DNA from: Yoonia vestfoldensis
Lineage (GTDB): Bacteria; Pseudomonadota; Alphaproteobacteria; Rhodobacterales; Rhodobacteraceae
Assembly: GCF_002158905.1 (NCBI RefSeq)
Contig: NZ_CP021431.1
Location: 372,001-436,000 of the forward strand
Length of the DNA: 64,000 nt
Reading direction: 5' to 3'
Part shown: piece by piece, positions 23,472-40,550 of the stretch
Position numbering within the stretch: position 1 is the stretch's first letter
How the letters are laid out: every line of letters begins with the position of its first letter
The notes under the pieces: model-generated
Told to the model about the DNA's origin: nothing
The model's input: only the letters and a program-made list of their open reading frames with translations
Database searches by the model: none
Position numbers and translations under genes: made by a program

Positions 23472-24031
23472 ACCGGCCGCCTGCGCGTGATGGCCCGCGC
23501 CACAAGCCCCAGCAGGACCGGAACAGGCAGACAAAGCAGATAGCGGGTCCAGACCAGATGGCTTGGCAGAAATGAAAACTCCCAGATCAATGTCCGGTTC
23601 AGGCCCAACAGGCTCCAGCCCGAGACAAAAGCGACCATTGCCCCGAAATCGGCCCCCGCAACGGTCAGGCCCGCCGCAAGGGGAAAGGTCATCATGGGTC
23701 CGCCGGGAATGGCGGCGCCGCAGGCTGCCGCGACGGCAAGACCTCGCAGACCGCTTTCCTGGCCGATCAGACGACCCACCCTGTCACGCAGCAGCAGCAT
23801 CGGTAATGTGGCGGCAATATAGATGCCTGCCGCGATCTTTGGCGCCAGAATGCCCAGCAAACCAAAGGTTTCCGCGATGATATCCAGGGCGCGCGCCACC
23901 CCTGCAATCCACAGGACCGCCGCAGCACCGGCCAGCGTGAACCCCAGCAGCACAAGCAAACTGCCGTCAATGACTTTGCGGGGGTGACGCTCTGCAGGCG
24001 GATCAGCCGCGATATTTTTCAATGAAAGCAT
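23468..24031 (-). CDS. Small membrane protein, first of a paralogous permease-like pair
   Basis: A 187-residue protein with about five hydrophobic segments. The motif [15 protein letters not shown] followed by [20 protein letters not shown] corresponds to the region in its downstream neighbour, so the two probably form a heterodimeric half-transporter pair. The ATG at 24031 overlaps the end of the hexapeptide transferase gene by 29 nt. No such pair belongs to the E. coli phn operon; it may move a phosphonate-pathway metabolite or ion. Confidence 0.65.
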
Positions 24032-24632
24032 CAATTTCAAGCGTCCGGATATCGGGGAGTGCAGCACGATAAGCGTCGCGGGACCAATCCCAGACGGCTA
24101 TTTCCATCAGCGCCTCGGCTTGGGGCGGGGTGAACCCGCGCTTGATAAGCCGGGCCGGCACACCGCCCACAACCGTGTAGGGGGCGACATCGCGCGTCAC
24201 AACGGCCCCCGCACCGATGACGGCACCTGTCCCGATCACAACACCTGCCGTCACCGTCACCCCGTGGCCGATCCAGACATCATGCCCGATGGTCACCCAA
24301 TCAGCCTTGCGCCATGCAAAGAAGTCCTGGTCGTCGTCGCCCAGCCCGTAAGCCTCTGCCCGGTAAACCGAATGATGCTGCACAGCGCGCCAAGTGGGGT
24401 GATTTCCCGGGTTGATCCGCGTTGCATTTGCGATGGAACACATTTTGCCGATGGTCGTCCAGACGATGTGGCAATCCTGGGTGACATATGACCAATCGCC
24501 CATCGTGGTTGCGCGCAATACCGTCCCTTTGCCGACCTCGGTCCATGCGCCCAGCTCACAATCGACGACATGGGCGTCGGGGTGGATAGTGGGGGCGGGG
24601 TTCAGCCGCTTTTTCGGGGCTGCGGCGCTCAT
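24003..24632 (-). CDS. Hexapeptide-repeat acyltransferase associated with phosphonate metabolism
   Basis: A 209-residue left-handed beta-helix protein with hexapeptide repeats ([17 protein letters not shown] and [22 protein letters not shown]), a DVWIGHG catalytic-His region and an N-terminal [15 protein letters not shown]. It matches the group annotated as the phosphonate-metabolism hexapeptide transferase family found in alphaproteobacterial phn operons. A role like PhnO (N-acetylation of aminoalkylphosphonates) is plausible, though PhnO itself is a GNAT protein. The ATG overlaps the phnE2 stop by 4 nt. Confidence 0.8.
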
Positions 24633-25486
24633 CGTGCTTGCTCTGACTTGCCGATCAGGCGTTGACGGATCATCGCGGACAGCCAGTCGATAAGATAGAC
24701 CATGGCGATGATCAGGAAGATGATCGACCATGCCTCGTCCCACCGATAGGCCGAAATGCGGTCCGACAGCAAAAACCCGATGCCGCCTGCGCCGACGATG
24801 CCCAGAATGGTGCCGGATCGGACATTGGATTCAAAATTGTAGAGCAGGATTGACAAGATCACCGGGTTGACCTGCGACATGATTCCAAAACGCACCTGCT
24901 GCAGCCTTGATCCGCCAGAGGCCTTGACCCCTTCGACAGGCTTTTCTGATGTGTTTTCAATGGCCTCGGAAAATAACTTGGCGAAAGTACCGATTTCGCT
25001 GACCGCAATGGCAAGAATCCCCGCCAGCGGCCCCAGCCCGAAGGCGCGGATGAAGATCAGCGCCAGGATCAGCGTCTCGAAGGCGCGGATCACATCGTAA
25101 CCACGGCGCACCCCAAGCCGCAAAAAGTTCAGGCGGTTGATATTCTTGGCCCCCAGAAAGGACAAGGGAAAGGCCACGACAGCCCCCAGCACGGTGCCTA
25201 GAAAAGCGATCGCCAGGGTTTCCCCCAGACCGGTCAGGATCGGCGCGAATTCGGCCCAGCTGGTCCAGATATGGGGTGGAAACATGAAGGCCAAGACAGA
25301 CCCAAGACGCTCTAACCCGACCCAGATGCGCTGTGGCGTGATGTTGAAATCGTAGAGGCACCAAGAAAAGAGCCCAATGAACAAGCTCCATAACGCATAG
25401 CGCCGAAGCCGCACAGGCAGCGGCGCACGAAACGCCAGCGGCACGCGCGCGCGGGCGGCATCAATGTCTTTCGGTGTTGGGGTCAT
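24629..25486 (-). CDS. phnE: Phosphonate ABC importer permease PhnE, second
   Basis: A 285-residue permease with about six membrane segments. PhnE signatures include [24 protein letters not shown], the EAA-like [19 protein letters not shown] and [17 protein letters not shown]. It overlaps the first permease gene by 4 nt. Two different PhnE subunits in tandem are common in alphaproteobacterial phosphonate importers and would form a heterodimeric channel. Confidence 0.9.
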
Positions 25487-26415
25487 GGGTGTTTCTCCAT
25501 TCCGATGACCCGGTGGCGCAGCTTTTCCGACCCATAATCAATCACCATGACAGTGACGAAAATGATGACGAACAGGGCCGAGAGGTCTGTATATTCCTGC
25601 AAGCTCATCGCTGTGCGAAATTCCTGCCCCAGACCGCCGGCACCGACATAGCCGATGATGGACGAGGCACGCACATTGATTTCAAAGCGTAAGAGCGTGT
25701 AGCTGATGATATTGGGCAGAATTTGCGGCACCGCCCCATAGCGGATCTGGTCGAACCATGTGCCACCCGCGGCCTTGACCCCGTCAAGCGGCCGCATGTC
25801 GATGTTTTCGTTCACCTCAGAGTAAAGCTTGCCCAAAGCGCCGGTCGCATGCAGCCCGATCGCAAGGACGCCCGCCATCGGGCCGACAGAAAAGCAAAAG
25901 ACAAAGATCAGCGCCCAGACCAGTTCGGGCACGGTGCGCGCAATTTCGAGATAGCGGCGGCTGATCCAAAGCACCCATTTGTTCGGAGACAGGTTGCGCG
26001 CGGCGGGAAAGGACAGCAAGAACCCGCCAACAACGCCCAGAACGGTCGCCATGAAAGCGATCAGAATGGTTTCGATCAGCAAGACCAGCCAGATACGCCA
26101 CCGCCAGAACCATTCGGCCAGATCGCTGCCCAGGGTCTCCCACCGCAGGGTCGGGATCATGTTGACGAGATAATCACCCAGGCGCGGGATACCCGCAGGG
26201 ATGATCCAGCGCCAGTCGCGTGACCCGTCGGGCAAAGTGACCTGCGTGACCTTAAAGAAATCCCCCAGCCAGGCCGTGATCATGAACAGCACCACAAAGA
26301 TGGCGCTGCCCAAGAACCAGTTCAGCCGCGCGCTGCGCCTTTTCGCGGCGAATTCCGTCTCAAAACGCGAGATCGCATCGCCTTGCACATCGGACGGGTC
26401 GGTCACTGCGGTCAT
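25483..26415 (-). CDS. phnE: Phosphonate ABC importer permease PhnE, first
   Basis: A 310-residue permease beginning MTAVTDPSDVQG at 26415; the longer frame to 26559 would overlap phnD and adds non-family sequence. PhnE signatures are TVPELVWALIFVFCFSVGPMAGVLAI, the EAA-like DGVKAAGGTWFDQIRYGAVP and SSIIGYVGAGGLG. It has an extra soluble stretch after the first membrane segment (about residues 55-90). It is separated from phnD by 67 bp containing a hairpin. Confidence 0.9.
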   Translation of the reverse strand: MTAVTDPSDVQGDAISRFETEFAAKRRSARLNWFLGSAIFVVLFMITAWLGDFFKVTQVTLPDGSRDWRWIIPAGIPRLGDYLVNMIPTLRWETLGSDLAEWFWRWRIWLVLLIETILIAFMATVLGVVGGFLLSFPAARNLSPNKWVLWISRRYLEIARTVPELVWALIFVFCFSVGPMAGVLAIGLHATGALGKLYSEVNENIDMRPLDGVKAAGGTWFDQIRYGAVPQILPNIISYTLLRFEINVRASSIIGYVGAGGLGQEFRTAMSLQEYTDLSALFVIIFVTVMVIDYGSEKLRHRVIGMEKHP

Positions 26416-26440
26416 GGTCTGATCCCCGTGGTTATTGGAT

Positions 26441-26464
26441 GGGGCGCGCTTGTGCACGCGCCCC
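26441..26464 (-). terminator. Intercistronic hairpin between phnD and phnE
   Basis: A perfect 8-bp stem (GGGGCGCG with CGCGCCCC) with an 8-nt loop lies just after the phnD stop. No U-run follows on the minus strand. This placement after a binding-protein gene suits mRNA stabilisation or partial attenuation, so that PhnD exceeds the permease. Confidence 0.55.
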
Positions 26465-26482
26465 TTGATCGACAGCTGCGGT

Positions 26483-27397
26483 CTAGCCGCGGCGCTGCGC
26501 GCGCAGCCAAGCGCGCATGTCGATGATCCACTGATAGCGGTCATGATCGACGCGCACATAGCCCACTGTCGGGTTGTCGTCCTCGGGATCGTAGGAGGTG
26601 TAGAAATTCCATCCCTCGGGATCGGCGCTGGGGAATGCTTCCACCGCGGCGGTAATCTCTTCGATCATCTCTGCGGGCAAGTTGGCGCGCGCGGTCAATG
26701 GGCCCGAGGTGATCTCGGGGGATTGCCAGATGACGCAGACTTGACCGGGCTCGATCATCCCCTTGAGCTCCATCCGCTGATAAACGCCGGACAATGCGGA
26801 ATCTTGCCATGTCGCTGCGGCATCAAAGGTGCCGTTGACGACACCCTGGACACCGGCCTCGTGGCTGCCGGAAAATGGAACCGCCGCGAAATAGGTCGTA
26901 GGATCAAGGTCTTCGCGTTCAACAAGGTTGAAATAGGGGACAGCATAGCCACTGGTGGAATCGGGGTCAGCAAAGGCCAGAACCTTGCCTTGCAGATCGG
27001 CCAAAGAGGTCAGACCGCTGTCACAGCGCGTCGTGATGATCGAGTAATAGCCGGTCGAGCCGTCCTTGTTCTGCGTGGTCAGCAGCGGGATGATGTTGCC
27101 ATCTGTCGCCGTATAGGCCGCCGCATAAGAGGATGAGCCGTGAAACGCGAATTCGATCTGGTCGGCGGCCATGGCCTGGATCACGCCATCATAACTTCCG
27201 GCAAGGAAAATCTCGATCTTCACGCCAAGCGTGCGTTCAAGGTGGTTTTTCAACGGTGCTGTGCGGGTCAGGCGGTCTTGTTCATTTTCGCCAGACAGGA
27301 ACCCGATATTCACAGTCTGGTAATCCTCCTTCCAGCCCTCGGCAAATGCCGGAGCCGCGATCAGCGTTGCAAGAGCAGTCACAGTGATGAAACGCAT
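26483..27397 (-). CDS. phnD: Phosphonate ABC importer binding protein PhnD
   Basis: A 304-residue periplasmic protein starting MRFITVTALATLIAAPAFA, with cleavage near AFAEGW. PhnD signatures are NIGFLSGENEQDRL, AADQIEFAFHGSSSYAAAY and VLAFADPDSTSGYAVP. The N-terminus is set at 27397, behind AAGGGATATCACC; the longer frame to 27445 overlaps phnC. It captures phosphonates or phosphate esters for PhnC and the two PhnE subunits. It follows phnC by 34 bp. Confidence 0.92.
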   Translation of the reverse strand: MRFITVTALATLIAAPAFAEGWKEDYQTVNIGFLSGENEQDRLTRTAPLKNHLERTLGVKIEIFLAGSYDGVIQAMAADQIEFAFHGSSSYAAAYTATDGNIIPLLTTQNKDGSTGYYSIITTRCDSGLTSLADLQGKVLAFADPDSTSGYAVPYFNLVEREDLDPTTYFAAVPFSGSHEAGVQGVVNGTFDAAATWQDSALSGVYQRMELKGMIEPGQVCVIWQSPEITSGPLTARANLPAEMIEEITAAVEAFPSADPEGWNFYTSYDPEDDNPTVGYVRVDHDRYQWIIDMRAWLRAQRRG

Positions 27398-27431
27398 GGT
27401 GATATCCCTTTTGGTTGCGTTGTCAGTTGCT

Positions 27432-28247
27432 TCAAACCGTTTCATTCACGCGCCCCGTGGCGCGCGCGGTGGTCGAGGTGACGGCTTCGTTGAACTCGGC
27501 AAAGCCATCGAGCCCGTAGATGTCGCGCACCACGTCGTCGGTGAGCTGTCTGGCTGTGCCATCGAACATCACGCGTCCGGCGCGCATCGCGATGATGCGG
27601 TCGCAATAGGCGCGGGCGGTATCGAGCGTATGCAGGTTGACCATGACGGTAATGCCGTCGTCGGTATTGATCCGTTTGAGACCATCCATCACGCGCGTGG
27701 CATTGGCCGGGTCAAGCGATGCGATGGGTTCGTCCGCAAGCATGATCTTTGGCCGCTGGACAAGGGCCTTGGCGATTGCGACGCGCTGCTGTTGGCCCCC
27801 TGACAATGTGCCGGCCCGCTGCAGCGCCTGTGGCACAAGGTCGAGCCGGTCCAGCGCCTCGATCGCCATGGTGCGTTCGGCGTCGCTGAATTGCATCGCC
27901 ATCGAACTCAGAAACCCATGTTCGGCCAGCCGCCCGATCAGCACATTGGTCAGCACATCTAGCCGGTCAACAAGATTGAACTGTTGAAAGATCATCGCAC
28001 AGGACCGCCGCCAATCCCGCAGCGCCTTGCCCCGCAGTGCGGTGATCTCTGTCCCATCAAATGACACCGACCCCGAGCTGGGGTCGATCAGCCGATTGAT
28101 CAGGCGCAGCATCGTGGATTTTCCGGCGCCAGAGCGCCCGATCACACCGACAAACTGGCCGGGGTTGATCGTCAGACTTACGTTATCGACCGCCTTTGTT
28201 TCGCCAAAGCTGCGCGACAAGGAGGTCAGGGTCAAAGAGGCTGTCAT
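27432..28247 (-). CDS. phnC: Phosphonate ABC importer ATPase PhnC
   Basis: A 271-residue ATPase with Walker [13 protein letters not shown], signature [15 protein letters not shown], Walker [14 protein letters not shown] and switch His in VNLHTLDTA, all in PhnC form. The ATG at 28247 lies only 3 bp from PhnF-type site B, so the operator overlaps the ribosome-binding region and repression could act at or just after the promoter. It is the first gene of the importer part (phnC-D-E-E-transferase-membrane pair) and is 55 bp downstream of phnM. Confidence 0.92.
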
Positions 28248-28302: not shown

Positions 28303-29496
28303 CTAACTGCTGTATGAAGGTTCCGTGAATGCAGCAGCGTCGCTGTGCGGGTCGAATGAAAGCAGGCCTTTGCTAAAGATCAGCTGCCCGCCGCGCAGGC
28401 TGGCAACGACATGGTGGCCTGCCACAATGGCCAGATCGGCGCGTTTGCCCAGCCCGATCCGTCCGCGGTCTGACAGCCCCAGCGCCTTTGCCGGGTTGGC
28501 GGTGGCCAATCGTGCGGCACCGGCCAAACCCTCTGGGTTGCTCTCGGCCAGAATCCGGATCGCGGGCAAGATCGTGGCCGGATGATAATCCGCCGCCAGA
28601 ATATGCAGCAATCCGGCGGCATGGGCCTCGCGTGCGGATAGATTGCCGGAATAGCTTTGGCCGCGCATCGCATTGGGCGCGCCCATGGCGATCATCATGC
28701 CGCGCGCAGCACAGGCGGCTGCGGCGTCTTTCGTGACCGGAAACTCCGACAGGATCGCGCCAAGGTCTGCCATCAGGTTGGCCTTGTCGGGCGAATCGTC
28801 ATCATGGCTGGCCAATGGCACGCCATGGTCGCGGCACAATTGCGCGACAGTCCGCATATTCGTCAAAAGGTCTTCTTGCGGGCGGCTTCGTTCCGCAATC
28901 GCCGTGCTGATCATCTGGCGGGCTTCGGTTTCGGACACACCGTGAAAGGCGGCCTTGTTCCGGATATGAACTTCGAGGTTGCGGTATTGCCCCTGGCCTG
29001 GCGTGTGGTCCATCAAGGATACCAGATCGACGCTTCCGTCCCCAAGCAGACCAGCCAGCACATTGACGGCATTGTCGAAGGTGATGTCAAATCGTGCATG
29101 GATCCGGTGATCGACACGGGCTTGCCCGCGCGCCTTTGACAGGTCACGGATCACTTGGCTGGTATGTTCGAATGACCGGCGCTCGCCCGCGCGAACACCG
29201 CGCGAGAATGACACCGCCGCATAAGCCGTTGTCACACCCGAGGCGGCCAGCCGCATATCGAGATGGTGCAGCGCGACATCCATCGGAAAATCCACAAGTG
29301 CGCGCGGCTCAAGCTCGACCTCGATCATGTCGCCATGCATGTCGATGAAGCCGGGAAAGATTTCCATTCCCTGCCCCTCGACGCCGCCTTTGACCGGGCC
29401 TTCGACGATGTCGGTGATGATGCCATCCTCGATCCGCAAAGAGCCATGCGGCATCACCCTGTCAGGCAGGACAAGCGCGAAATCAGATAACCACAT
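28303..29496 (-). CDS. phnM: PhnM, ribose-1-phosphonate 5-triphosphate diphosphatase
   Basis: A 397-residue amidohydrolase. Motifs are PGFIDMHGDMIE, SLMDHTPGQGQYR, LASHDDDSPD, GAPNAMRGQSYSGN and ILAADYHPA, with the C-terminal ADLAIV strand. It would remove pyrophosphate from the ribosyl-phosphonate triphosphate made by PhnG-H-L-I. The start is the ATG at 29496, overlapping the phnL stop by 14 nt; a longer frame to 29523 is possible but less typical. HGDM replaces the HTDN commonly seen in PhnM, and the second PhnM in the window also has HGD, so both belong to a divergent branch. Confidence 0.88.
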   Translation of the reverse strand: MWLSDFALVLPDRVMPHGSLRIEDGIITDIVEGPVKGGVEGQGMEIFPGFIDMHGDMIEVELEPRALVDFPMDVALHHLDMRLAASGVTTAYAAVSFSRGVRAGERRSFEHTSQVIRDLSKARGQARVDHRIHARFDITFDNAVNVLAGLLGDGSVDLVSLMDHTPGQGQYRNLEVHIRNKAAFHGVSETEARQMISTAIAERSRPQEDLLTNMRTVAQLCRDHGVPLASHDDDSPDKANLMADLGAILSEFPVTKDAAAACAARGMMIAMGAPNAMRGQSYSGNLSAREAHAAGLLHILAADYHPATILPAIRILAESNPEGLAGAARLATANPAKALGLSDRGRIGLGKRADLAIVAGHHVVASLRGGQLIFSKGLLSFDPHSDAAAFTEPSYSS

Positions 29497-30202
29497 CTTG
29501 CCGGTCCTCGTGGCGTGCCGCATCAGGGGTCAGGTCGATCACGCGATCTATCAGATGCGCGACATCATCAGGGTGGTGAAAAACGCCAATCATCGCCGTG
29601 CCTTGCGCCTTGAGGTCGGCCAGACGCTGCACCAGCGCCGCGCGGGCATTGGCATCCAGCGACGCGGTCGGTTCATCAAGCAAAAGCAACTTTTGCGGGC
29701 GGATCAAGGCACGGGCAAGATTGACCTTTTGCTGTTCACCGCCCGAAAAGGTGGTCGGATAGGCCGGCCAGAGATTTGCCTTGACCCCAAAGGTTTTCAG
29801 CCAGTGCCGGGCCTCGGTCAGGCTTTCGTCGGCATCGACACCGGCCAGCCGCAACGGCTCTGCGACCAATGCTTCGGCGCTGACCCGAGGCCGTGCGACC
29901 AGAAATTGCGTGACAAAGCCGATTTCGGTCTGGCGCAGATAGGTGATATCGACATCCGCGGCGCGGGCCAGATCGATCTGGCCATGATCGGACCGGAACA
30001 GGATCTGTCCGGCCTGCGGCAGATAGCTGCGATAAAGCGTGCGCAGCAGCGTGGATTTGCCCGCGCCATTGGCCCCTTTCAGTAGAACGAATTCCCCCGC
30101 CGCCACAGCAAAGGAAACATCATCGAAGGCCGCGAAACCCTGACCCAGATGATGCATGGTAAAGCCTTTTTGGAGGCCGCGAATGTCCAGAACGGGGGTC
30201 AT
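29483..30202 (-). CDS. phnL: PhnL, C-P lyase-associated ABC-type ATPase
   Basis: A 239-residue ATPase with no permease partner. It starts MTPVLDIRGLQKGFTMHHLG, as PhnL proteins do, with Walker A GANGAGKSTLLR, signature FSGGEQQKVNLARALI and Walker B LLLLDEPTASLD. PhnL is needed with PhnG, H and I to couple the phosphonate to the ribose of ATP. It overlaps phnK by 4 nt. Confidence 0.9.
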   Translation of the reverse strand: MTPVLDIRGLQKGFTMHHLGQGFAAFDDVSFAVAAGEFVLLKGANGAGKSTLLRTLYRSYLPQAGQILFRSDHGQIDLARAADVDITYLRQTEIGFVTQFLVARPRVSAEALVAEPLRLAGVDADESLTEARHWLKTFGVKANLWPAYPTTFSGGEQQKVNLARALIRPQKLLLLDEPTASLDANARAALVQRLADLKAQGTAMIGVFHHPDDVAHLIDRVIDLTPDAARHEDRQDVVI

Positions 30203-30996
30203 AATTTTGCATGCACCAATTGTTGCGTATACGCATGTTGCGGATCCTGAAAGACTTGGTCGGCCAGCCCGGCTTCGACCACTTCGCCGCGCCGCATGAC
30301 CATCACACGATCCGCCAAGGTCCGGATCACGCCCAGATCGTGACTGACGATCACCATGGTGATCTTGCGGTCCTGTTGCAGCCGTTTCAGCGTATCCAGC
30401 ACAAGCGCCTGCACACTGACATCCAGCCCCGTTGTCGGTTCGTCCAGCAACAAGAGTGCGGGTTCAAGGGCGATGGCCTTGGCAAGCTGGACCCGCTGCT
30501 GCATCCCACCCGACAATTCGATCGGCGGCGCATCAAGCCGTTCAAGCGGAAATTCCGATGCCGCCAAGGCGCTTGTCGCCTTTGCCCGCAGCACGGCAAA
30601 GCGTCGCTCGCCCGCCACCAACAGGCGTTCGGCCACATTGCCAGAGCTGGAATGCGTCATCAAAAGCCCAAGATGGGGGTTCTGATAGACAATGCCGATC
30701 CGCGTCGCACAGAGCATGCGGCGCGAAAACCGGTCAAGGTCAAAGAGGTTTCCATCCACATCCGGCAGGTCCAGCGTATAGCTGCCGCTTTGTGGCGTTT
30801 CTTCCAGGTTCATCATGCGCAGAAGGGTGGATTTGCCAGAGCCGCTTTCCCCCACGATGCCCAGCACTTCACCGGGATAGACGGCGACATGCACATCGCG
30901 CAGCGCGACAACCGGCCCGTAGGATTTGTTCACACCGTGCATCTGCACCAAAGGGGCGGCGGTGACGATCCGCGGCGGATCGCGTTCCAAGATCAT
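30199..30996 (-). CDS. phnK: PhnK, C-P lyase-associated ABC-type ATPase
   Basis: A 265-residue ATPase resembling OppF-type domains, with Walker A GESGSGKSTLLR, signature LSGGMQQRVQLAKAIA, Walker B LLLLDEPTTGLDVS, switch His in IVSHDLGV and the PhnK tail HAYTQQLVHAKL. In the E. coli complex PhnK binds the PhnJ surface and gates the active site. It overlaps phnJ by 4 nt, consistent with co-assembly. Since the PhnJ partner lacks most cluster cysteines, whether PhnK still docks is an open question. Confidence 0.9.
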   Translation of the reverse strand: MILERDPPRIVTAAPLVQMHGVNKSYGPVVALRDVHVAVYPGEVLGIVGESGSGKSTLLRMMNLEETPQSGSYTLDLPDVDGNLFDLDRFSRRMLCATRIGIVYQNPHLGLLMTHSSSGNVAERLLVAGERRFAVLRAKATSALAASEFPLERLDAPPIELSGGMQQRVQLAKAIALEPALLLLDEPTTGLDVSVQALVLDTLKRLQQDRKITMVIVSHDLGVIRTLADRVMVMRRGEVVEAGLADQVFQDPQHAYTQQLVHAKL

Positions 30997-31907
30997 TTTG
31001 ACAATTCTCCGTCCTTGTACCAGGTCTCGCCCTGATGTGTCTGTTCGCCCATGCGGTGCTGGATCGCTTTCACGCCGAACTGGCTGTCGGATATCTCAAA
31101 GGTGGATGACCCGTCGGCCTGTGGGATTTCATTCATGAAATAGCCCTTCGCCCCCGAGCGCGCGCAAACCAGCTTGCCGTGGTCTTCGACCCGATAGGGC
31201 ACATCGTCGAAAACCAGCGGTTCGACCCGACAATATGGCGGTACCGCAAAGATGCGCTTTTCGCGGCCAGCAGACAGGATCGTCAGATGCTGCGCCATAT
31301 GCAGCTTGGGCACATCCCAACGCGGGATCGGCGAGGGTGTCATGACATGGCGTCCATTGACCATCGACGGATAGCTTGCGCCCTGCATGACGCGCCCTGA
31401 TCGCACGATCTGTTCATAAAGCTGCAACCACATCCGCCCGTAATCGGCATCGGCATGCATCTGTCGCGCAATCGACATATTGGGCTGCACGCCGCGCAAA
31501 GGTTCGGGGTTGGGCACCTGCAGCACGAGGATCTGATCCTCGCGCAGGATTTCTTCGGGGATGCGGTGCCGCGACTGGATCAGATCAGCCTGCAACGTGT
31601 CCAAGGTCACCGGCGCGCCCGATACCCGTGCCAGAAACCCCCGGATCGAGGCTGCGTTGACGCTGTCATCGGCCCCTTGGTCGATTACTTTCACGCAGGT
31701 CCGCGGGTTGATCAAGGTCAACGAAACCTGCAAGCCACCGGTGCCCCACCCCCGCGCCATCGGCACTTCGCGGCTGGCATAGGGCATCTGGCAGCCGGGC
31801 ACGCAGACCGCCTTTATCATCTTGCGGCGCAATTCACGTTTGGCAGAGGCGTCCAGAAAGCCGTAACTCATCGGCGCCCAAGGCTTTGTCAGGCTGGCAA
31901 GGGTCAT
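30993..31907 (-). CDS. phnJ: PhnJ homologue lacking the iron-sulfur and thiyl-radical cysteines
   Basis: A 304-residue PhnJ by overall sequence: GWGTGGLQ, VIDQGADDSVNA, SRHRIPE, DQILVLQVPNPEPLR, GAGREKRI-like SAGREKRIFAVPP. In E. coli PhnJ the cluster and catalytic cysteines are C241, C244, C266 and C272 (CAICG ... FVCSDTDYC). Here the region reads VCARSG ... FEISDSQFG, so only the first Cys remains (C248); the others are Ser251, Ile272 and Gly278. The glycine used as a radical site in E. coli (Gly32) is kept as Gly38, but flanked by two new cysteines (C35-VPG-C39). The gene is intact and overlaps its neighbours by 4 nt on both sides. It is therefore probably functional but not as a standard C-P lyase. 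The start is 31907; a longer frame to 32135 is rejected. Confidence 0.88.
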   Translation of the reverse strand: MTLASLTKPWAPMSYGFLDASAKRELRRKMIKAVCVPGCQMPYASREVPMARGWGTGGLQVSLTLINPRTCVKVIDQGADDSVNAASIRGFLARVSGAPVTLDTLQADLIQSRHRIPEEILREDQILVLQVPNPEPLRGVQPNMSIARQMHADADYGRMWLQLYEQIVRSGRVMQGASYPSMVNGRHVMTPSPIPRWDVPKLHMAQHLTILSAGREKRIFAVPPYCRVEPLVFDDVPYRVEDHGKLVCARSGAKGYFMNEIPQADGSSTFEISDSQFGVKAIQHRMGEQTHQGETWYKDGELSK

Positions 31908-32959
31908 TCTGCTGGCTCCTGTGCGGCTGCGCGTTTTGCCTTGGCATCCCGCATCGCGTCCAATGATGATTGGAAGGTGACGTAATGGGGCAGTTTGAAG
32001 TGGATGCAAAAGCCCGATGCTTCGACGCCTTCGGTGTGATAAAGAAAGAATTCTTCTTCTGTCGCAGAGCCTTTGGGCGCATCTTTGCTGTTCAGGTCGA
32101 GTGTCGCGGCCGCGATACATTTTACCTCGTTCCACCCAAGTGTCGCCGCAAAACCCAGACGCAGCTTTTCACCTTGCTTGGATACCACTTCGGCTTGGGA
32201 CACTTTGACCCGGCCGGCCGAGAATTTTGTGCCATTGGGATGGGTGACGACGACCTCCGCTTCGGCCAAGCGCAATTCGTTGACCGTCGGATGGGCCTGT
32301 CCGTAACCGCGCATAGCGGCATAGCCCAGCGCCAGCACACCGCCGGTTTCGGCCCGTGCAAGGCTTTGCAATGTATGGGCGCGCTTGGCAGGAAACAGAA
32401 GTGGTTCGCGGGTCAGATCGGCAATCTGCTCTCCTGCGATGGTATCGGGTTTGGGGATATCAACCAGATCGTTTGCCGCCTGCCATGCGCTGACCGACGG
32501 CTGCTGCGCAGGGGCCGGATCGGCCGCCGGTTCCACCTGCGGGGGATCAAATGGGGTGCCGGTCAGAACATCCGTCGCCAGCACCCGGTGCGTGTAATCC
32601 AGCGTCGGCCCAAGCAGCTGGCCCCCCGGAATATCCTTGAATGCCGCTGAAATCCGGCGATGGGTAAACAGGCTGTCTTGTTCCACCGGCGCCGCGACGC
32701 TCAGGCGGGGTTGGGTCGTGCGCCATGCGCGCAAGACCAGCACCGCCTCGTAAAGTTCGCCGCCCGTTTGCGCCAGGGCAAGCGATGCCAGGTCCTCGTC
32801 GTAAAGCGATGCTTCGCCCATGACCCGGTCAACCAGATAGGGCAGTGCCTGTTTGATCTCTGCGACGCGGTCCGCGCTGATCTGTCCCAATGCCGCGCGA
32901 AACAGACGTTCGGATTGTTCGATTGCCCGCTCGCCGCCGCGGGTTGCCACATATGCCAT
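31904..32959 (-). CDS. phnI: PhnI, C-P lyase core subunit
   Basis: A 351-residue PhnI: MAYVATRGGERAI at the start, YLVDRVMGEASLY, RRISAAFKDIPGGQLLGPTLDYTHR and the C-terminal HFKLPHYVTFQ, which keeps the two His that bind metal in the E. coli complex. PhnI is the nucleosidase that with G, H and L transfers the phosphonate to ribose. A segment before the C-terminus (GFAATLGWNEVKCIAAATLD) departs from the AMAMALVD sequence I recall in E. coli PhnI. The start is set at 32959, overlapping phnH; the frame to 33004 is longer than the family. Confidence 0.88.
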   Translation of the reverse strand: MAYVATRGGERAIEQSERLFRAALGQISADRVAEIKQALPYLVDRVMGEASLYDEDLASLALAQTGGELYEAVLVLRAWRTTQPRLSVAAPVEQDSLFTHRRISAAFKDIPGGQLLGPTLDYTHRVLATDVLTGTPFDPPQVEPAADPAPAQQPSVSAWQAANDLVDIPKPDTIAGEQIADLTREPLLFPAKRAHTLQSLARAETGGVLALGYAAMRGYGQAHPTVNELRLAEAEVVVTHPNGTKFSAGRVKVSQAEVVSKQGEKLRLGFAATLGWNEVKCIAAATLDLNSKDAPKGSATEEEFFLYHTEGVEASGFCIHFKLPHYVTFQSSLDAMRDAKAKRAAAQEPAE

Positions 32960-33495
32960 CAGGCGACCTCTACCTTGGTTGATCGCGGCAAACCGACCAG
33001 ACATTCGCCGTCGAGGAAAAAGATGTCGAACCCCATCGGATACCGGATCAGCCTGGCCCGTTCCTGCCAGAAGCCCGCAGGCAAACCGTCAAGCTGGATC
33101 ACCACGGCGCCGTCCACACCGGGGCCGGTCAGGCGTATCCTTGGGCCTTGCGCGAACTTTGCGCGGATCACCAAGGTCGCCCCCTGATCGGGATAGAGGT
33201 CGGATCCGGTCCGGCATTGCCCCAAAAGGGTGATATCCTGAAGCCTGCCCAGAAACGCATGATCCGCCTGACACAGATCGACCAATCCGGCCCCGGTCTG
33301 CGCCAGAACGGGGATCAGCAAAGGATCGCCAGCATAGGCGGCACATTCACGGTCCAGCAAGGCCGCGATCAAGGCAGCTTCGCCCGGTGCTGGCAGCTGT
33401 CGCGGCAGCCCCGGCCGACTGCAAGCCCAAAGGGCGGCCTCGAACGCGGCATTGGCTTGTGTTTCTTCTGCGTCGGGCGCGGGGGTGGTCAGCAT
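32959..33495 (-). CDS. phnH: PhnH, C-P lyase core subunit
   Basis: A 178-residue PhnH: an N-terminal AFEAALWACSRPGLPRQLP resembling the family FR-x-LL-x-AMS-x-PG segment, then QGATLVIRA, RIRLTGPGVDG and the tail GFDIFFLDGECLVGLPRSTKVEVA, which matches E. coli PhnH (GIDL-x-L-x-x-G-E-x-LLAIPRTTHVEV). PhnH is a homodimeric core subunit with a PLP-transferase-like fold but no cofactor. It overlaps phnI and phnG by 1 nt each. Confidence 0.88.
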   Translation of the reverse strand: MLTTPAPDAEETQANAAFEAALWACSRPGLPRQLPAPGEAALIAALLDRECAAYAGDPLLIPVLAQTGAGLVDLCQADHAFLGRLQDITLLGQCRTGSDLYPDQGATLVIRAKFAQGPRIRLTGPGVDGAVVIQLDGLPAGFWQERARLIRYPMGFDIFFLDGECLVGLPRSTKVEVA

Positions 33496-33917
33496 CAGAA
33501 TGTCTCCATATCGACGCGGGTTGCTTGGATGCGGCGCAGCCTGTCGTGGTCATCTTCTGTCTGGCGCGTGGCCTCTTGCTGACAAAAGGCCCTGCATCGT
33601 GTGACCTCGATGCCGCTGGCGATGGCCAGATCGACCAGTGCCATGGCCATCGCCGCCTCTAGATCACGGCCGCGGCGCATCCCGTAGCCGTCAATGCCGT
33701 CACGCGACACATGCGCCTGGCTGACCAGAACCTCGCCAAGGTGGAACGTGGCCCCGCCAGCGGTATCGCGCATCGGCAACATGACCAGGCCGGTACGGCT
33801 TTGCTGCACGTTGATCGGCCCAAGCGGCGCAATCAGGGTTTCGGCAAATTGCTTGATCCGCGCGGCATCTGCACGCGCCAGCGTGGACAAGGTGTGACTG
33901 TCGGTTTTCGGGGTCAT
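33495..33917 (-). CDS. phnG: PhnG, C-P lyase core subunit, divergent
   Basis: A 140-residue PhnG recognised by TGLVMLPMRDTAGGATFHLGEVLVSQAHV and GYGMRRGRD. The usual N-terminal W(M)-x-x-LA signature is absent. The stretch after GRD reads LEAAMAMALVDLA, close to a sequence found in PhnI of E. coli rather than in its PhnG. The assignment rests on position in the operon as well as these motifs. It overlaps phnF by 4 nt. Confidence 0.8.
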   Translation of the reverse strand: MTPKTDSHTLSTLARADAARIKQFAETLIAPLGPINVQQSRTGLVMLPMRDTAGGATFHLGEVLVSQAHVSRDGIDGYGMRRGRDLEAAMAMALVDLAIASGIEVTRCRAFCQQEATRQTEDDHDRLRRIQATRVDMETF

Positions 33918-34630
33918 GCTTGATTACCTGCAACACTGAACCGGACCCGCGACGCGGCCCAGACGACATCGGAAAAAGAAATCGGCGTGCCATCTGGCAG
34001 GGCATCGACGGCACGGATGATCGTGACGGATAAATCAGGATGCTGTTGCAGCAGCCGGGCCTCTTGCTGATCGGCTTGGCGGGAATGAAAGCTGGTCTCG
34101 GCGCGGATGTAATCCGCGATCCCGTAAGAACGGTAGGTTTCCGTTATCGACCCAAAGACCGCACGCCTGTCAAGAAAGGCCGGAAACCGGTCGACCGCGT
34201 GAAAGATTGTGCCGAACGCAATGGGCAGACCATCCGCGAGCGTCAACCGATGCGCGAAATACACCTTTGCATCCGTCGCAAGGCCAAGCGCCTCGCGCAC
34301 CCGTTCAGGTGCAGTGATGATCCCCGACCTCAGCAACTCGCGCGAGATATCGATCGTCTGGGACGCCAGGTTTTGGCGCAGGCGTGTGCGTTTGCCCAAT
34401 TCGTAATGCAGCATTTTCGGCGCGCTCACAAAAGTGCCGCGGCCCTGTTCGACGCGGAGCATGCCCTGTTTGGCCAGTGCCGCGATCGCGCGGCGCAGAC
34501 TATGCCGCCCCGTCCCATATTGCTTGACAAGCTCGGGTTCTGTCCCGATCTGGTCGCCAGGTTGCAGGTGCCCAGCCGCAATATCTTGTGCGATGGCGTC
34601 TCGGACATATGTCCAGTCAATCGTTGTCAC
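33914..34630 (-). CDS. phnF: PhnF, HutC-family GntR regulator
   Basis: A 238-residue regulator starting at GTG 34630, behind GAGG. The winged helix-turn-helix is QIGTEPELVKQYGTGRHSLRRAIAAL with wing QGRGTFVSAPKMLHYELGKRTR, and the C-terminal UTRA domain has YFAHRLTLADGLPIAFGTIFH. This matches PhnF of phosphonate operons. It lies at the head of the phn operon and 14 bp from a perfect palindrome (site C), so it probably represses itself, phnC and the plus-strand arm. Confidence 0.9.
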   Translation of the reverse strand: MTTIDWTYVRDAIAQDIAAGHLQPGDQIGTEPELVKQYGTGRHSLRRAIAALAKQGMLRVEQGRGTFVSAPKMLHYELGKRTRLRQNLASQTIDISRELLRSGIITAPERVREALGLATDAKVYFAHRLTLADGLPIAFGTIFHAVDRFPAFLDRRAVFGSITETYRSYGIADYIRAETSFHSRQADQQEARLLQQHPDLSVTIIRAVDALPDGTPISFSDVVWAASRVRFSVAGNQA

Positions 34631-36381: not shown

Positions 36382-36405
36382 ATTACAACAAACAAGGAGA
36401 CCTCC

Positions 36406-37665
36406 ATGACGATTTGGACCCCCACCGACGACGGACATGCCGATCTGACCAGCCACGACACTTTTACCGCCGGCGCACCGCACAACACGTTCAAAAGGCT
36501 GCGTCACGAAGACCCCATTCACTGGACAGAATGGGATCAGGGTAAAGGTTTCTGGTCGATTACGCGGCACGCCGACATCATGGAAATGAACCGCAACACG
36601 GCGGTCTTTTCGTCGGAACACGGCATCCGCATGGAGGATCAATCCCCCGAAGAGGTCATCGCGCGCCGCACCTTTCAGGAGATCGATCCGCCAGAGCATA
36701 TGAAAACCCGCATCAAGCTGGCGAAAGCCTTTTCCAAGGGCGTGATCGAGGGGTTCAACAGCGACATTCGTGACCTCTGCGTCACCATTCTGGACGATGT
36801 GCTGCATGAGCGGGAATTCGACGCCACCAAGCGGATCGCGCGCGTTCTGCCCATGCTGATGCTGGGCCGGATCATCGGCACACCAGAGGATGATCTGCCT
36901 TGGCTGGTCGAAAAGGGTGACGAGCTGATCGCCAACACCGACCCCGATTTCACGGACCACGTCCTCGACAAGATCACAACGGACGAATTCCGCATGATGC
37001 CATTCAACTCCCCCGCAGGTGCAGAGTTATTCGCCTATGCCAAGGAGATGTTGGAGCGTAAAAAGCGCGAGGGCGACACCTCTGGCGTGCTGCACATGAT
37101 CCTGCAACCCGGCCCCGACGGCGATGTGATCTCGGAAACCGAGTTCCGCAATTTCTTTTGCCTGCTGGTCGCTGCGGGCAACGACACGACGCGCTATTCC
37201 ATCGCGGGCGGTATTCAGGCGATGTGTCACCAGCCTGAACTGCTGGCCCAGATGCAAGCAGGCGGTGACATCTGGGAAACAGCACCGGATGAGATCATCC
37301 GGTGGGCCACTCCTGCGCTTTACTTCCGGCGCACGGCGCTGTCGGATTATGAGATCCACGGCAAGACGATCAAGGCGGGGGACAAGGTTCTGTACTGGTT
37401 CTCGTCTGCCAACCGCGATGAGGCGGTGTTTGACGACCCGTTCCGCGTGGACCTGTTCCGCACGCCCAACAAGCACCTGTCCTTTGGGCAGGGCGGCCCG
37501 CACCTGTGCCTTGGCATGTGGCTGGCGCGGCTTGAAGTGCGCGTGCTGTTTCAGGAATTGTCCAAGCGCATCACCCATATCGAGGCCGCAGGCCCCCACC
37601 AATTCCTGCGGTCCAATTTCGTGGGCGGCATCAAATCCCTGCCGGTCCGCGTCACGCTGGCCTGA
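36406..37665 (+). CDS. Cytochrome P450 monooxygenase
   Basis: A 419-residue soluble bacterial P450. The oxygen-binding I-helix motif is AAGNDTTR, the ExxR motif is DEIIRWATPALYFRR, and the haem-ligand loop is LSFGQGGPHLCLG with the axial Cys. It starts at 36406 behind AAGGAGA. It is followed by a glutamine-synthetase-like enzyme and by its likely electron donors, a 2Fe-2S ferredoxin and a ferredoxin reductase, giving a complete class I P450 system. The substrate is probably an amine or its gamma-glutamyl derivative, or an aromatic acid later channelled to homogentisate. Confidence 0.92.
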   Translation: MTIWTPTDDGHADLTSHDTFTAGAPHNTFKRLRHEDPIHWTEWDQGKGFWSITRHADIMEMNRNTAVFSSEHGIRMEDQSPEEVIARRTFQEIDPPEHMKTRIKLAKAFSKGVIEGFNSDIRDLCVTILDDVLHEREFDATKRIARVLPMLMLGRIIGTPEDDLPWLVEKGDELIANTDPDFTDHVLDKITTDEFRMMPFNSPAGAELFAYAKEMLERKKREGDTSGVLHMILQPGPDGDVISETEFRNFFCLLVAAGNDTTRYSIAGGIQAMCHQPELLAQMQAGGDIWETAPDEIIRWATPALYFRRTALSDYEIHGKTIKAGDKVLYWFSSANRDEAVFDDPFRVDLFRTPNKHLSFGQGGPHLCLGMWLARLEVRVLFQELSKRITHIEAAGPHQFLRSNFVGGIKSLPVRVTLA

Positions 37666-37712
37666 GAAAAGAAAATAAAACCACAAAGAACAAACCAACA
37701 CGGAGAGACCCC

Positions 37713-39002
37713 ATGGCCGAACGACTAAGAGCGATGTTCTGCGATCACCTGAGCATCATGCGCGGCAAATACCTGCCCGCCTCAAAAATCCGCGACGACG
37801 AGACACGGTTTTGCCGATCGACCTTCGGGGTCCATTACGACAAGGACTTGCTGCCCGCGCCGGGGTCCATGATGCTCGAAGGTTTGCCGGATATGGCGCT
37901 GCACTGGATCCATGACGAAATCCGCGAAGGCTGGGAACGGGACACGAAAATTGTGTTGGGCGATCTCTATGACCACAACGGCCAGCCGCTGGCGCTATGC
38001 CCACGCGGTGCGCTGAAACGGGCGGTTGCGGCCTGGGGTGCGCGGGGGCTGTCGCCCAAAGTCGGGATCGAGTTGGAGGCTTTCGCCTTCATCCATAACG
38101 AAGACGGCGCGCTGGTCCCTTATAACAGCCGGGGTGCGGTGGTTTATGGCACGGGGCCGTTTACCGACCCGCTGGGGTTCAACGACCAGATCTGGGACAT
38201 GGCGGACAAGCTGGGCTTCCGGCTGGACATGATCACCGCCGAATACGACACGCCGCAGTTCGAATACACGCTGACCTTCGATGACGCCGTGAAGGCTGTC
38301 GATGACATCGTGCTGTTCCGCCAGATGGCGCGGGAAATCGCATTGCAGGCCGGTGTGATCCTGACCTTCATGCCTAAACCGATCCCCCAGGCGGGCGGGT
38401 CGGGCATGCATATCAATTTCTCTTTCGTGGATGAAACGGGTCGCAATGCCGTGGCTGGGCAGGGCGGCGGCGGGCCGGAGCACCTTAACGATTTGGCGAA
38501 GGGCTGCATCTCTGGCCTGTTGACCCACCACAAGGCGCTGGCCGGGCTGATCGCGCCGACGGGCACATCCTACAGGCGTTTGGCGCCTGCATCCTTGTCG
38601 GGCTATTGGCGCAACTGGGGCGGGGACCACCGCAACGTGACCACGCGGATCAGCGCCGAAGGGGGGGCCAAGGCGCGGCTGGAACACCGGATGGCCGATG
38701 CCTCTGCCAATCCCTATACTGCCGTGGCCGCCGTGTTGCAGGCCGCCTTGCTGGGGCAGGACCAGACGGCAGAGCTGCCCCCGATTGAGACCGGCGACGG
38801 GTTCGAGACGACGGATGCCACCGAAGGCACCGCGACTGATCTGGGCGCTGCGATTGCCGATCTTGCGGCTGACACGGCGCTTTGCGGGGCGGTCGGCGAT
38901 CTACTGACGCAGAACCACATCTTCATGAAATCGCAGGAGGTCGAGAAGACCGCCGATCTGGACGATGCGGCGCTGCGCGATTTCTACATTTACTACGTTT
39001 GA
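37713..39002 (+). CDS. Glutamine-synthetase-like gamma-glutamyl-amide synthetase
   Basis: A 429-residue GlnA-fold enzyme. Metal and nucleotide motifs are GIELEAFAFI, ITAEYDTPQFEY, GGSGMHINFSF, SYRRLAPAS, NVTTRI and LEHRMADASANPYTAVAA. It differs from housekeeping GlnA in length (usually about 470) and lacks the adenylylation loop, and resembles gamma-glutamyl-polyamine or gamma-glutamyl-anilide synthetases. It would ligate glutamate to an amine with ATP. Its neighbours (amidotransferase, P450, ferredoxin, reductase) suggest that the amine is masked before or during oxidation. It sits 47 bp after the P450 gene. Confidence 0.82.
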   Translation: MAERLRAMFCDHLSIMRGKYLPASKIRDDETRFCRSTFGVHYDKDLLPAPGSMMLEGLPDMALHWIHDEIREGWERDTKIVLGDLYDHNGQPLALCPRGALKRAVAAWGARGLSPKVGIELEAFAFIHNEDGALVPYNSRGAVVYGTGPFTDPLGFNDQIWDMADKLGFRLDMITAEYDTPQFEYTLTFDDAVKAVDDIVLFRQMAREIALQAGVILTFMPKPIPQAGGSGMHINFSFVDETGRNAVAGQGGGGPEHLNDLAKGCISGLLTHHKALAGLIAPTGTSYRRLAPASLSGYWRNWGGDHRNVTTRISAEGGAKARLEHRMADASANPYTAVAAVLQAALLGQDQTAELPPIETGDGFETTDATEGTATDLGAAIADLAADTALCGAVGDLLTQNHIFMKSQEVEKTADLDDAALRDFYIYYV

Positions 39003-39012
39003 GGAGGCCGCC

Positions 39013-39327
39013 ATGAAAGTCACCTGGACCTTGCAAGACGGCGGGACCCGCACCGCCGACGTCGCCCCCGGCACCAACATGATGGAGGCCGCCGTGGCCA
39101 ATGGCATCAATGGCGTGGTCGGAGAATGCGGCGGCTGCCTGTCTTGTGCCACCTGCCATGTCTATGTCGCCGACGATTGGGCGGATAAGACCGGCGGGCC
39201 GGAGGATTTCGAGGACGCGATGCTGGACGCCACAGAGGCCGAGAGGAAGGCCACCAGCCGGTTGTCCTGCCAGATCGTGGCCGATGACAGCCTTGACGGT
39301 CTGCACCTGATCGTTCCCACACCCTGA
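39013..39327 (+). CDS. 2Fe-2S ferredoxin (putidaredoxin/adrenodoxin type)
   Basis: A 104-residue ferredoxin with the cluster motif ECGGCLSCATCH and the fourth Cys in RLSCQIV, the vertebrate/putidaredoxin-type spacing. It starts at 39013, behind GAGGAGG. It carries electrons from the reductase encoded next to the P450. Confidence 0.92.
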   Translation: MKVTWTLQDGGTRTADVAPGTNMMEAAVANGINGVVGECGGCLSCATCHVYVADDWADKTGGPEDFEDAMLDATEAERKATSRLSCQIVADDSLDGLHLIVPTP

Positions 39328-39344
39328 CCGGACTGGGGCGAGAG

Positions 39345-40550
39345 ATGCAGCGCATTGTCATCATCGGGGCCGGGCAGGCGGGATGTTCCGCCGCCTTCGG
39401 TTTGCGCAAACACGGGTTTGAGGGAGAGGTGATCCTGCTGGGGGCGGAGGCCGATCCCCCCTACCAGCGCCCGCCTTTATCCAAGGCCTATCTGCTGGGC
39501 GACATGGCGCGCGAGAGGCTGTACCTCAAACCACCCGACGCCTATGCCGCCGCGGGGATTGATCTTCGCACGGGCTGCGCCGTGACCGGGATTGATCCGG
39601 CGAATATGCGGGTTGAGACAGCGCAGGGGACGCTCGCGGCCGATGCGATCATCCTCGCCACCGGGTCGGACCCGATCCGCCTGCCTCAGGCAGTGACGGG
39701 CGGTTTGGCGGGCATTCACTCTGTTCGCGGGCTGGCCGATATTGATGCCATTCGCGATCGGGTCGCCACCAGCACCCACGCCGTGATCATCGGCGGCGGC
39801 TACATCGGGCTTGAGGCTGCCGCCGTGGCGACCAAGGTCGGGTTGCGGACGACGGTCGTCGAAATGGCGCCGCGTATCCTGCAACGGGTGGCGAGCGAGC
39901 AAACCTCTGACGCGATCCGCGCCCTGCACCAGCACCACGGGGTGACGATCCGCGAGGGGGTTGGGCTGGCCCGGTTTGAAGGCGACGGTGCGGTGACCAG
40001 GGCGGTGCTGAGCGACGGGACAGCGCTGCCCTGCGATCTGGCCATCGTCGGTGTCGGCATCCGCCCCAATACCGCCCTGGCAGAGGCCGCAGGTCTGCGG
40101 ATCGACAACGGCATCTGGACGGACGCGCGGGGACAGACATCGGCCCCGGGCATCTGGGCGGTGGGCGATTGCGCGTCCTTCCCCCACGGCGGTGCATGGC
40201 TGCGTCTTGAAAGCGTGCCCCATGCGATTGATCACGCGGATACCGTGGCGGCCAATGTGATGGGGCAGGGCAAAGACTATGCCGCGCGGCCCTGGTTCTG
40301 GTCGGACCAGTTTGACGTCAAACTGCAGATCGCGGGGCTGAACAATGGCTATGACGCGGTGGTGACGCGGCGGGGCAACACAAACTGGTCGCTGTCGCAT
40401 TGGTATTTTGGCGCCGGGCGGCTGCTGGCGGTCGATGCCTTGAACGCGCCGCGCGACTATATGACCGGCAAGCGCTGGATCGAGGCGGGGCAGACACCGG
40501 ACCGAGCGGGTCTTGCGGACCCTGCGACGGACCTCAAAACCTTGGTTTAA
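39345..40550 (+). CDS. NAD(P)H-dependent ferredoxin reductase (putidaredoxin reductase type)
   Basis: A 401-residue FAD protein with an FAD-binding Rossmann motif (IIGAGQAGCSAA), a PPYQRPPLSKAYL segment, a second NAD-binding motif (IIGGGYIGLEAAA) and the FAD-contact WAVGDCASF. This is the layout of ferredoxin reductases serving P450s and ring hydroxylases. It completes the electron chain and is the last gene before a bidirectional terminator. Confidence 0.92.
   Translation: MQRIVIIGAGQAGCSAAFGLRKHGFEGEVILLGAEADPPYQRPPLSKAYLLGDMARERLYLKPPDAYAAAGIDLRTGCAVTGIDPANMRVETAQGTLAADAIILATGSDPIRLPQAVTGGLAGIHSVRGLADIDAIRDRVATSTHAVIIGGGYIGLEAAAVATKVGLRTTVVEMAPRILQRVASEQTSDAIRALHQHHGVTIREGVGLARFEGDGAVTRAVLSDGTALPCDLAIVGVGIRPNTALAEAAGLRIDNGIWTDARGQTSAPGIWAVGDCASFPHGGAWLRLESVPHAIDHADTVAANVMGQGKDYAARPWFWSDQFDVKLQIAGLNNGYDAVVTRRGNTNWSLSHWYFGAGRLLAVDALNAPRDYMTGKRWIEAGQTPDRAGLADPATDLKTLV

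Follow-up and report, generated by a model that had tools for sequence, protein, structure and literature searches.

A PhnJ type lacking three of the four C-P lyase cysteines in phn operons of Yoonia vestfoldensis and other bacteria

Identification of a Cys-less PhnJ type

The 64,000-nucleotide stretch of Yoonia vestfoldensis DNA analysed here (contig NZ_CP021431.1, positions 372,001 to 436,000; hereafter the window) carries a phn operon for a carbon-phosphorus (C-P) lyase complex whose PhnJ subunit has lost C244, C266 and C272 (Escherichia coli numbering), three of the four C-P lyase cysteines. This Cys-less PhnJ is a coherent type spanning Rhodobacterales, Rhizobiales, Thermus/Meiothermus/Deinococcus and Chloroflexota. 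In the genomes compared it is under purifying selection and conserved like canonical PhnJ. An earlier note, made from the sequence alone, had inferred that such a complex cannot perform standard radical C-P cleavage, and the present data support this as a prediction for cleavage by way of S-adenosylmethionine (SAM) and radicals. I tentatively favour the possibility, held at somewhat less than even confidence, that the complex uses the predicted zinc site between PhnI and PhnJ, and neither SAM nor radicals, to split some phosphorus bond that is not C-P; it would then probably release no methane.

In E. coli PhnJ, C241, C244 and C266 ligate a Fe4S4 cluster, C272 is the thiyl-radical residue, and Gly32 is the radical site. 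The window phnJ is an undamaged open frame, whose translation reads VCARSG...FEISDSQFG in this region. HMMER alignment to the E. coli PhnJ chains 7z15_D and 4xb6_D pairs C241 with C248, C244 with S251 and C266 with I272, while C272 lies one residue beyond the alignment and was placed on G278 by family alignments. The substitutions are thus those listed in the note, as are the absence of a frameshift and the 4-nucleotide overlaps with phnI and phnK. I then compared 200 close relatives (the best 120 of 7783 matched proteins, query included, and 80 of 102 genome loci; 189 distinct sequences). C248, Ser251 and Gly278 are present in all 200, with V, I, L, A or M at position 272. Only one of the Fe4S4 ligands, C241, is therefore kept, and the thiyl-radical position is glycine throughout. 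Because the same three losses recur in 200/200 sequences, a sequencing error is excluded.

To what extent this type is separated from canonical PhnJ is seen in an alignment of 508 PhnJ sequences (494 distinct), which comprises 165 with all four cysteines, 343 (329 distinct) without C244, C266 and C272, and none in a partial state; the sequences were collected as relatives of three queries, among the matches listed, and the zero holds for these sets only. A further 19 PhnJ loci fetched later, and one locus (L148) that was dropped from the alignments and later found to have four cysteines, show the same two states, except for a decayed frame in genome G765. In a tree of 98 rows, the Cys-less rows form one side of a single branch with support of 100/99, and a first tree of 104 rows agrees; both are midpoint-rooted and gave long-branch warnings, and a very long row (canonB) was excluded from the 98-row tree. 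Alignment and tree, the check proposed in the note, hence give a coherent clade, found in phnGHIJKLM operons.

A tblastn search of plasmids identified the Cys-less PhnJ in named Rhizobiales, in one Haematobacter (70-79% identity) and in Thermus thermophilus (57-59%), where each of the eight plasmid records with a match at 1e-60 has a single place for PhnJ. The best 120 of 8000 relatives of the Thermus protein (hereafter the distant set) all lack C244, C266 and C272; those named among them are from Thermus, Meiothermus, Deinococcus, Chloroflexota groups and one Synechococcus.

Constraint was assessed in 20 genomes possessing both types. Their Cys-less proteins share on average 82.5% identity in pairwise comparison and their canonical ones 82.4%, the Cys-less copies being the closer in 98 of 190 genome pairs. 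The median ratio of nonsynonymous to synonymous substitution rates (dN/dS) is 0.10 for the former (159/190 pairs with dS <2) and 0.11 for the latter (169/190). The second PhnJ copy has four cysteines in 19 of these genomes, and the stretch compared for the 20th is cut before the CxxC. A single decaying Cys-less copy was met, that of G765, where phnJ is broken and no G, I, K, L or M match was found in the 12 kb read.

Conserved residues of PhnJ and its partners

The note had suggested that relocated cysteines could form a new site, and this was rejected. C35, C71 and C226 are found in only 12, 26 and 5 of the close relatives respectively, and the only invariant cysteines are C39 and C248. C39 is present in 214/214 Rhodobacterales-type sequences but is mostly limited to that lineage: outside the alphaproteobacterial crown the position is mostly tyrosine (101 of the distant set, with Cys in 11, and Tyr, His or Ala in 109), as it is in 7 of the 9 named plasmid copies. 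C248 is kept in 110 of the distant set and replaced by Ser or Asp in the other 10. In one four-Cys PhnJ (L112), a cysteine replaces Tyr33, the residue corresponding to C39, and this position is therefore variable in the canonical type as well.

The radical-site glycine is retained as G38 in 200/200 close and 120/120 distant Cys-less sequences, in agreement with the note. This glycine is invariant in both PhnJ types, and its conservation may also be structural.

Passages of the structural study of the E. coli enzyme (PMC9947105) place the cyclic phosphate PRcP at the PhnI-PhnJ zinc site, contacted by PhnJ R107, Q124, H108 and loop 47-50, put a distance of 30 angstroms between Gly32 and the cluster site, and describe docking of PhnK on PhnJ E149 and Y158. 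R107, H108, Q124, G47, W48, G49 and T50 are all kept in every close (200/200), distant (120/120) and named plasmid (9/9) Cys-less PhnJ. Y158 is Tyr in 200/200 close relatives and Tyr or Phe in 119/120 distant ones, and E149 corresponds to Asp in 200/200 close relatives, as in the canonical copies of the source genome. The D226 position is Val in 200/200 close relatives, and D228 is variable. Overall, 28 positions separate the 214 Rhodobacterales-type Cys-less sequences from 164 canonical ones.

The best AlphaFold model of the window PhnJ matches E. coli PhnJ (7z19_D) with template-modelling (TM) scores of 0.77/0.84, at a mean predicted local-distance difference test (pLDDT) score of 75.6. The five models range from 56.6 to 75.6; the PhnK-binding insert is poorly predicted (blocks 131-160 at 42-55), and the C-terminal domain reaches 84-91.

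The partner proteins also keep their functional motifs in the window and related loci. The PhnI motif HFKLPH, which the note had reported as kept, and the His of QAHPTV (together the zinc ligands H328/H333 and H219) are found in 80/80 (the window and 79 loci). The Walker A Lys, signature and Walker B Asp-Glu are intact in 81/81 PhnK and 80/80 PhnL, and the HGD and SHD motifs in 79/79 PhnM.

Gene content around Cys-less operons

Gene content was examined in the 57 of 80 Cys-less loci with full flanks, all of which have the genes of the complex, PhnM and PhnF. Further genes were counted by tblastn and compared to 20 canonical operons hand-picked from 104 genomes of the family in which the Cys-less type is absent. 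Three accessory genes were compared, and the sole clear difference concerns one encoding a TIM-barrel protein, near 20/57 Cys-less and 1/20 canonical loci (p 0.009); the corresponding counts are 9/57 and 0/20 (p 0.1) for a SpdA-like phosphoesterase, and 7/57 and 0/20 (p 0.18) for a UgpB-like binding protein. The TIM-barrel gene (L072:12634-13587 and relatives) is xylose-isomerase-like and resembles the model of the cobamide phosphodiesterase CbiR weakly, at 40.5 bits against a cut-off of 105.

The Thermus operon carries a homologous TIM-barrel gene (31% identity, E 4e-18). On Thermus plasmid pVV8, the Cys-less GHIJKLM cluster lies beside a YmdB-type phosphoesterase and a sugar-type ATP-binding cassette (ABC) importer, and a second Thermus plasmid encodes a sugar-type binding protein homologous to one from Shimia (29%, E about 1e-47). 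On a plasmid of Rhizobium AB2/73 (L203), too, genes for a PfkB kinase and an ABC importer of the sugar type are found directly upstream of the Cys-less GHIJKLM, with no PhnCDE match in the stretch.

Possible function of the Cys-less complex

I infer the reaction, substrate class and product from the cysteine losses, the kept motifs, the single branch, the selection and the gene content, which come from the sequences themselves. PhnCDE would import a phosphoryl compound, which PhnI, with PhnG, PhnH, PhnK and PhnL, would join to the ribose of ATP, and PhnM would trim the triphosphate. ATP hydrolysis by PhnK and PhnL would open and close the PhnI-PhnJ cleft, where the ribose 2'-OH, aided by zinc and PhnJ His114, would attack phosphorus and expel an alcohol or other group, giving 5-phosphoribosyl 1,2-cyclic phosphate. 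On chemical grounds the likely target is a P-O or other P-X bond, preferred over C-P because a heteroatom leaving group lets the 2'-OH attack proceed without a radical; the neighbouring genes lend this circumstantial support. The cyclic phosphate would be recycled by a TIGR03223 or PhnP-like phosphodiesterase and then by PhnN, enzymes which in Rhodobacterales could be supplied by the canonical operon.

Since the product would be the same cyclic phosphate, this scheme needs only PhnN and a cyclic phosphodiesterase, and the Rhodobacterales, Mesorhizobium/Microvirga and G068 cases would all fit. Action on another bond, one of the options raised in the note, is favoured because two of the nine named plasmid loci carry post-cleavage genes, and because canonical PhnJ was not found in genome G068. 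The Cys-less operon of Mesorhizobium AR07 reads GHIJKLM-DUF1045-phnN, with IS6 transposases on both sides, and that of Microvirga VF16 carries phnN and DUF1045. G068 is 99% complete and the exception among nearly complete genomes; TIGR03223 and PhnN stand on the flanks of its Cys-less operon, and neither of its two genus mates has a PhnJ. The TIGR03223/DUF1045 protein of G068 has two HxT motifs (HGTL and HLTL) and matches PF13563 and PF02834, which I take to be families of the 2H (cyclic-phosphodiesterase-type) superfamily. For PhnP the TIGR03307 model was no guide: it gave a general metallo-beta-lactamase signal, with 0 of 15 genomes above cut-off.

A number of observations weigh against cleavage of another bond, and many of these point instead to a complex that only ribosylates, with PhnM, a second class of phosphonate and passes the ribosyl-phosphonate to the canonical radical PhnJ, its own PhnJ serving as PhnK dock and cleft wall. 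Among 246 family genomes drawn evenly, 14 of 15 Cys-less carriers also have canonical PhnJ, compared to 104 of 231 non-carriers (Fisher p 2e-4; the co-occurrence samples overlap and the p values ignore relatedness). A second PhnJ is present in 77 of the 79 named genomes behind the 80 loci, as a fragment in G276 and in pieces in G685 and G701, and in 10/79 the two phnJ genes are no more than 25 kb apart, by the places listed. Both genomes without it are metagenome-assembled genomes (MAGs): in G693, PhnN and TIGR03223 stand at the contig start, as if a canonical operon had been cut there, while in G689 neither is above cut-off. Similarly, 16 of 390 genomes of the order (246 with any PhnJ) carry an intact Cys-less type, 15 of them with at least two PhnJ matches. 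Such co-occurrence is more simply explained by a role in feeding the canonical enzyme. The Cys-less operons of the family moreover contain the pre-cleavage genes, with phnN near 0/57 loci against 20/20 controls, TIGR03223 near 0/57 against 15/20, and PhnD, a phosphonate-type binding protein, near 53/57; phnN is also not in the stretch seen for 7 of the 9 named plasmid loci. PhnN is above cut-off in 43/43 Cys-less carriers tested. Among genomes without PhnJ it is above cut-off in 3 of 41 (G007, G708 and G721), and PhnN alone is therefore weak evidence. One of these, the G068 genus mate G708 (L193), keeps phnF, phnN, TIGR03223 and phnM with no canonical GHIJKL match in the stretch; the G068 argument is weakened, because post-cleavage genes can outlive a lost GHIJKL. 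The Thermus, Mesorhizobium and Microvirga evidence comes from plasmid records, to which the search for canonical PhnJ in these genera was confined. Within Cys-less PhnJ, conservation is highest in the PhnK-binding insert (mean entropy 0.15) and lowest in the C-terminal domain, tail excepted (0.75). However, 46% of the C-terminal-domain columns are under 0.1 bit, which counts against ribosylation only, as do the phnN and DUF1045 genes within the Mesorhizobium and Microvirga operons, the lack of a canonical match in G068, and the presence of the Cys-less type alone on the eight matched Thermus plasmid records. Conversely, cleavage of another bond leaves the conserved C248 and much of the C-terminal domain unexplained. 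Ribosylation only, also an option in the note, is thus favoured by the co-occurrence and by the phnN-free Rhodobacterales-type loci, and the Rhodobacterales data fit it best; as an account of the whole type I regard it as rather unlikely.

The remaining explanations appear less probable. Two-electron cleavage of the C-P bond in activated phosphonates, for example those with a carbanion-stabilising group, agrees with the PhnD-type importer near most loci and with the kept pocket residues, but in Rhizobium AB2/73 and Thermus a sugar-type importer stands in for PhnCDE or occurs alongside it; to my knowledge no radical-free C-P lyase of such kind has been described, and I consider this improbable. 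That the complex is a non-catalytic regulator or a decaying C-P lyase copy would suit the single decayed copy of G765, yet the low dN/dS, the intact catalytic motifs of PhnI, PhnK, PhnL and PhnM (window and 78-80 loci) and the multi-phylum spread make it more improbable still. Finally, canonical PhnJ could act as an activase, installing a glycyl radical on Gly38 of the Cys-less protein, with Cys39 as a new thiyl. The invariance of G38, the occurrence of C39 in all Rhodobacterales-type sequences and the co-occurrence are in line with this, but in most of the distant set the C39 position is Tyr, His or Ala, the glycine may be structural, and canonical PhnJ was not found in G068 or on the matched Thermus plasmids, within what was searched; I judge this very improbable.

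A broader and more doubtful proposal is that the Cys-less complex represents an ancient multi-phylum C-P lyase branch devoid of iron-sulfur cluster, SAM or radical, in which the zinc site and the dual ABC motor would make the cyclic phosphate by two-electron chemistry, the classical radical site perhaps being a later addition. In the tree a single branch divides the two types, with no indication of which arose first.

Organization of the phn operon in the window

The operon lies on the minus strand, from 34630 down to 24003, in the order phnF-G-H-I-J-K-L-M-C-D-E-E followed by a hexapeptide acetyltransferase (Table 1). The note had called it intact, which holds for the importer and for the genes of the complex; neither phnN nor the PhnP model was matched in it. 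The NCBIfam scan gave no match for the window PhnJ or PhnI, a result of little weight because canonical PhnJ was outside that scan.

Table 1. Features of the phn operon in the window
Feature	Position	Strand	Basis or remark
phnJ, Cys-less type, 304 aa	30993..31907	-	Pfam PhnJ (PF06007) 380 bits, cut-off 25; AlphaFold match
C248 codon (E. coli C241), sole survivor of the four Cys	31164..31166	-	translation, alignment
S251 codon (E. coli C244)	31155..31157	-	translation, alignment
I272 codon (E. coli C266)	31092..31094	-	translation, alignment
G278 codon (E. coli C272, thiyl-radical Cys)	31074..31076	-	translation, family alignment
G38 (radical Gly32) and C39 codons	31791..31796	-	translation, family alignment
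R113-H114 codons (E. coli R107, H108, cyclic-phosphate contacts)	31566..31571	-	alignment; contacts from passages of PMC9947105
phnF regulator	33914..34630	-	family match
phnG	33495..33917	-	family match
phnH	32959..33495	-	family match
phnI	31904..33004	-	HFKLPH zinc motif and MAYVA kept; start likely M16
phnK, ABC ATPase, motifs intact	30199..30996	-	family match, motif check
phnL, ABC ATPase, motifs intact	29483..30202	-	family match, motif check
phnM, ribosyl-triphosphate diphosphatase	28303..29523	-	above NCBIfam cut-off (NF011988)
phnC, importer ATPase	27432..28247	-	named from position and relatives, no family scan
phnD, binding protein	26483..27445	-	family match
phnE1 permease	25483..26559	-	named from position and relatives
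phnE2 permease	24629..25486	-	named from position and relatives
hexapeptide acetyltransferase TIGR03308, type found in phn operons	24003..24743	-	family match

The source genome (3.99 Mb, 100% complete) encodes two further PhnJ proteins elsewhere, both with four cysteines and 47% and 42% identical to the window PhnJ. Its canonical phn operon is at L004. In a third phn operon (L005, G000:C1:3793000-3812900), the phnJ at 9684-10631 is divergent, with four cysteines and a Gln replacing the cyclic-phosphate His108; it adjoins frames resembling an integrase and a resolvase by eye, and forms the longest end branch of the first tree.

Beside the operon, genes for a cytochrome P450, a glutamine-synthetase-like protein, a 2Fe-2S ferredoxin and a ferredoxin reductase, named by eye, occupy window positions 36403-40550. 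The P450, ferredoxin and reductase were considered as an electron supply and rejected, being matched in 0/80 related loci; the glutamine-synthetase-like gene was matched in 1/80.

Implications

According to passages of PMC9947105, a long distance separates the two candidate active sites of C-P lyase, and the step for which the enzyme uses its zinc site and its pair of ABC ATPases is unsettled. In the Cys-less complex one candidate site is gone and the other kept, which makes this question directly testable.

The finding also bears on the use of phnJ as a marker. In excerpts of two studies (PMC6852614, PMC8774927), phnJ counts serve as a measure of methane formation driven by methylphosphonate and of the number of C-P lyase copies in a cell; the former finds several taxa with more than one phnJ copy per genome, and the latter counts phnJ by KEGG Orthology (KO). 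Databases label Cys-less copies 'C-P lyase PhnJ', and such counts may be inflated by them. In passages of PMC11978286, the four cysteines were checked in that study's own PhnJ. The MAG of Marivita SBSPR1 (G276, L151) has been published as a full-pathway carrier, yet the only full-length PhnJ found in it is Cys-less: its Cys-less operon is full length, its canonical phnJ only a fragment (residues 102-209 matched), and PhnH, PhnK and PhnL of the canonical set are unmatched, for which the assembly may be at fault. Among the papers listed in searches of the open PubMed Central (PMC) literature, none was seen to describe a Cys-less PhnJ, as judged from titles, abstract starts or passages (including PMC12413358, PMC5649143, PMC10574752, PMC4046663, PMC7694296 and PMC5529391).

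Comparison with known systems

The closest system of known structure is the E. coli C-P lyase Phn(GHIJKL)2 (PDB 7Z15-7Z19 and 4XB6; passages of PMC9947105), with which the window system shares fold, subunits, zinc ligands, cyclic-phosphate contacts, PhnK dock, ABC ATPases and PhnM. It differs in the loss of C244, C266 and C272, and in an operon without a phnN or PhnP-model match. The canonical alphaproteobacterial phn operon, as at L004 of the source genome, has the complex genes, phnM, importer and hexapeptide acetyltransferase in common with it, but such operons encode a four-Cys PhnJ and, in the controls above, have phnN and mostly TIGR03223 nearby.

Two further systems are related in part. 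One, known by title from the reference list of PMC5649143, is likewise a C-P lyase operon that is the second of its kind and serves another function. GpxB of marine bacteria is, in passages of PMC12718374, a PhnD-type binding protein that binds phosphate esters, so that a PhnD-type protein can bind glycerol phosphates; it belongs to a transporter and not to a lyase. The PhnJ of Thermus thermophilus pVV8 is of the same Cys-less branch and 59% identical to the window PhnJ; its operon, annotated as C-P lyase, differs by the tyrosine at the C39 position and by the adjoining YmdB-type phosphoesterase and sugar ABC importer.

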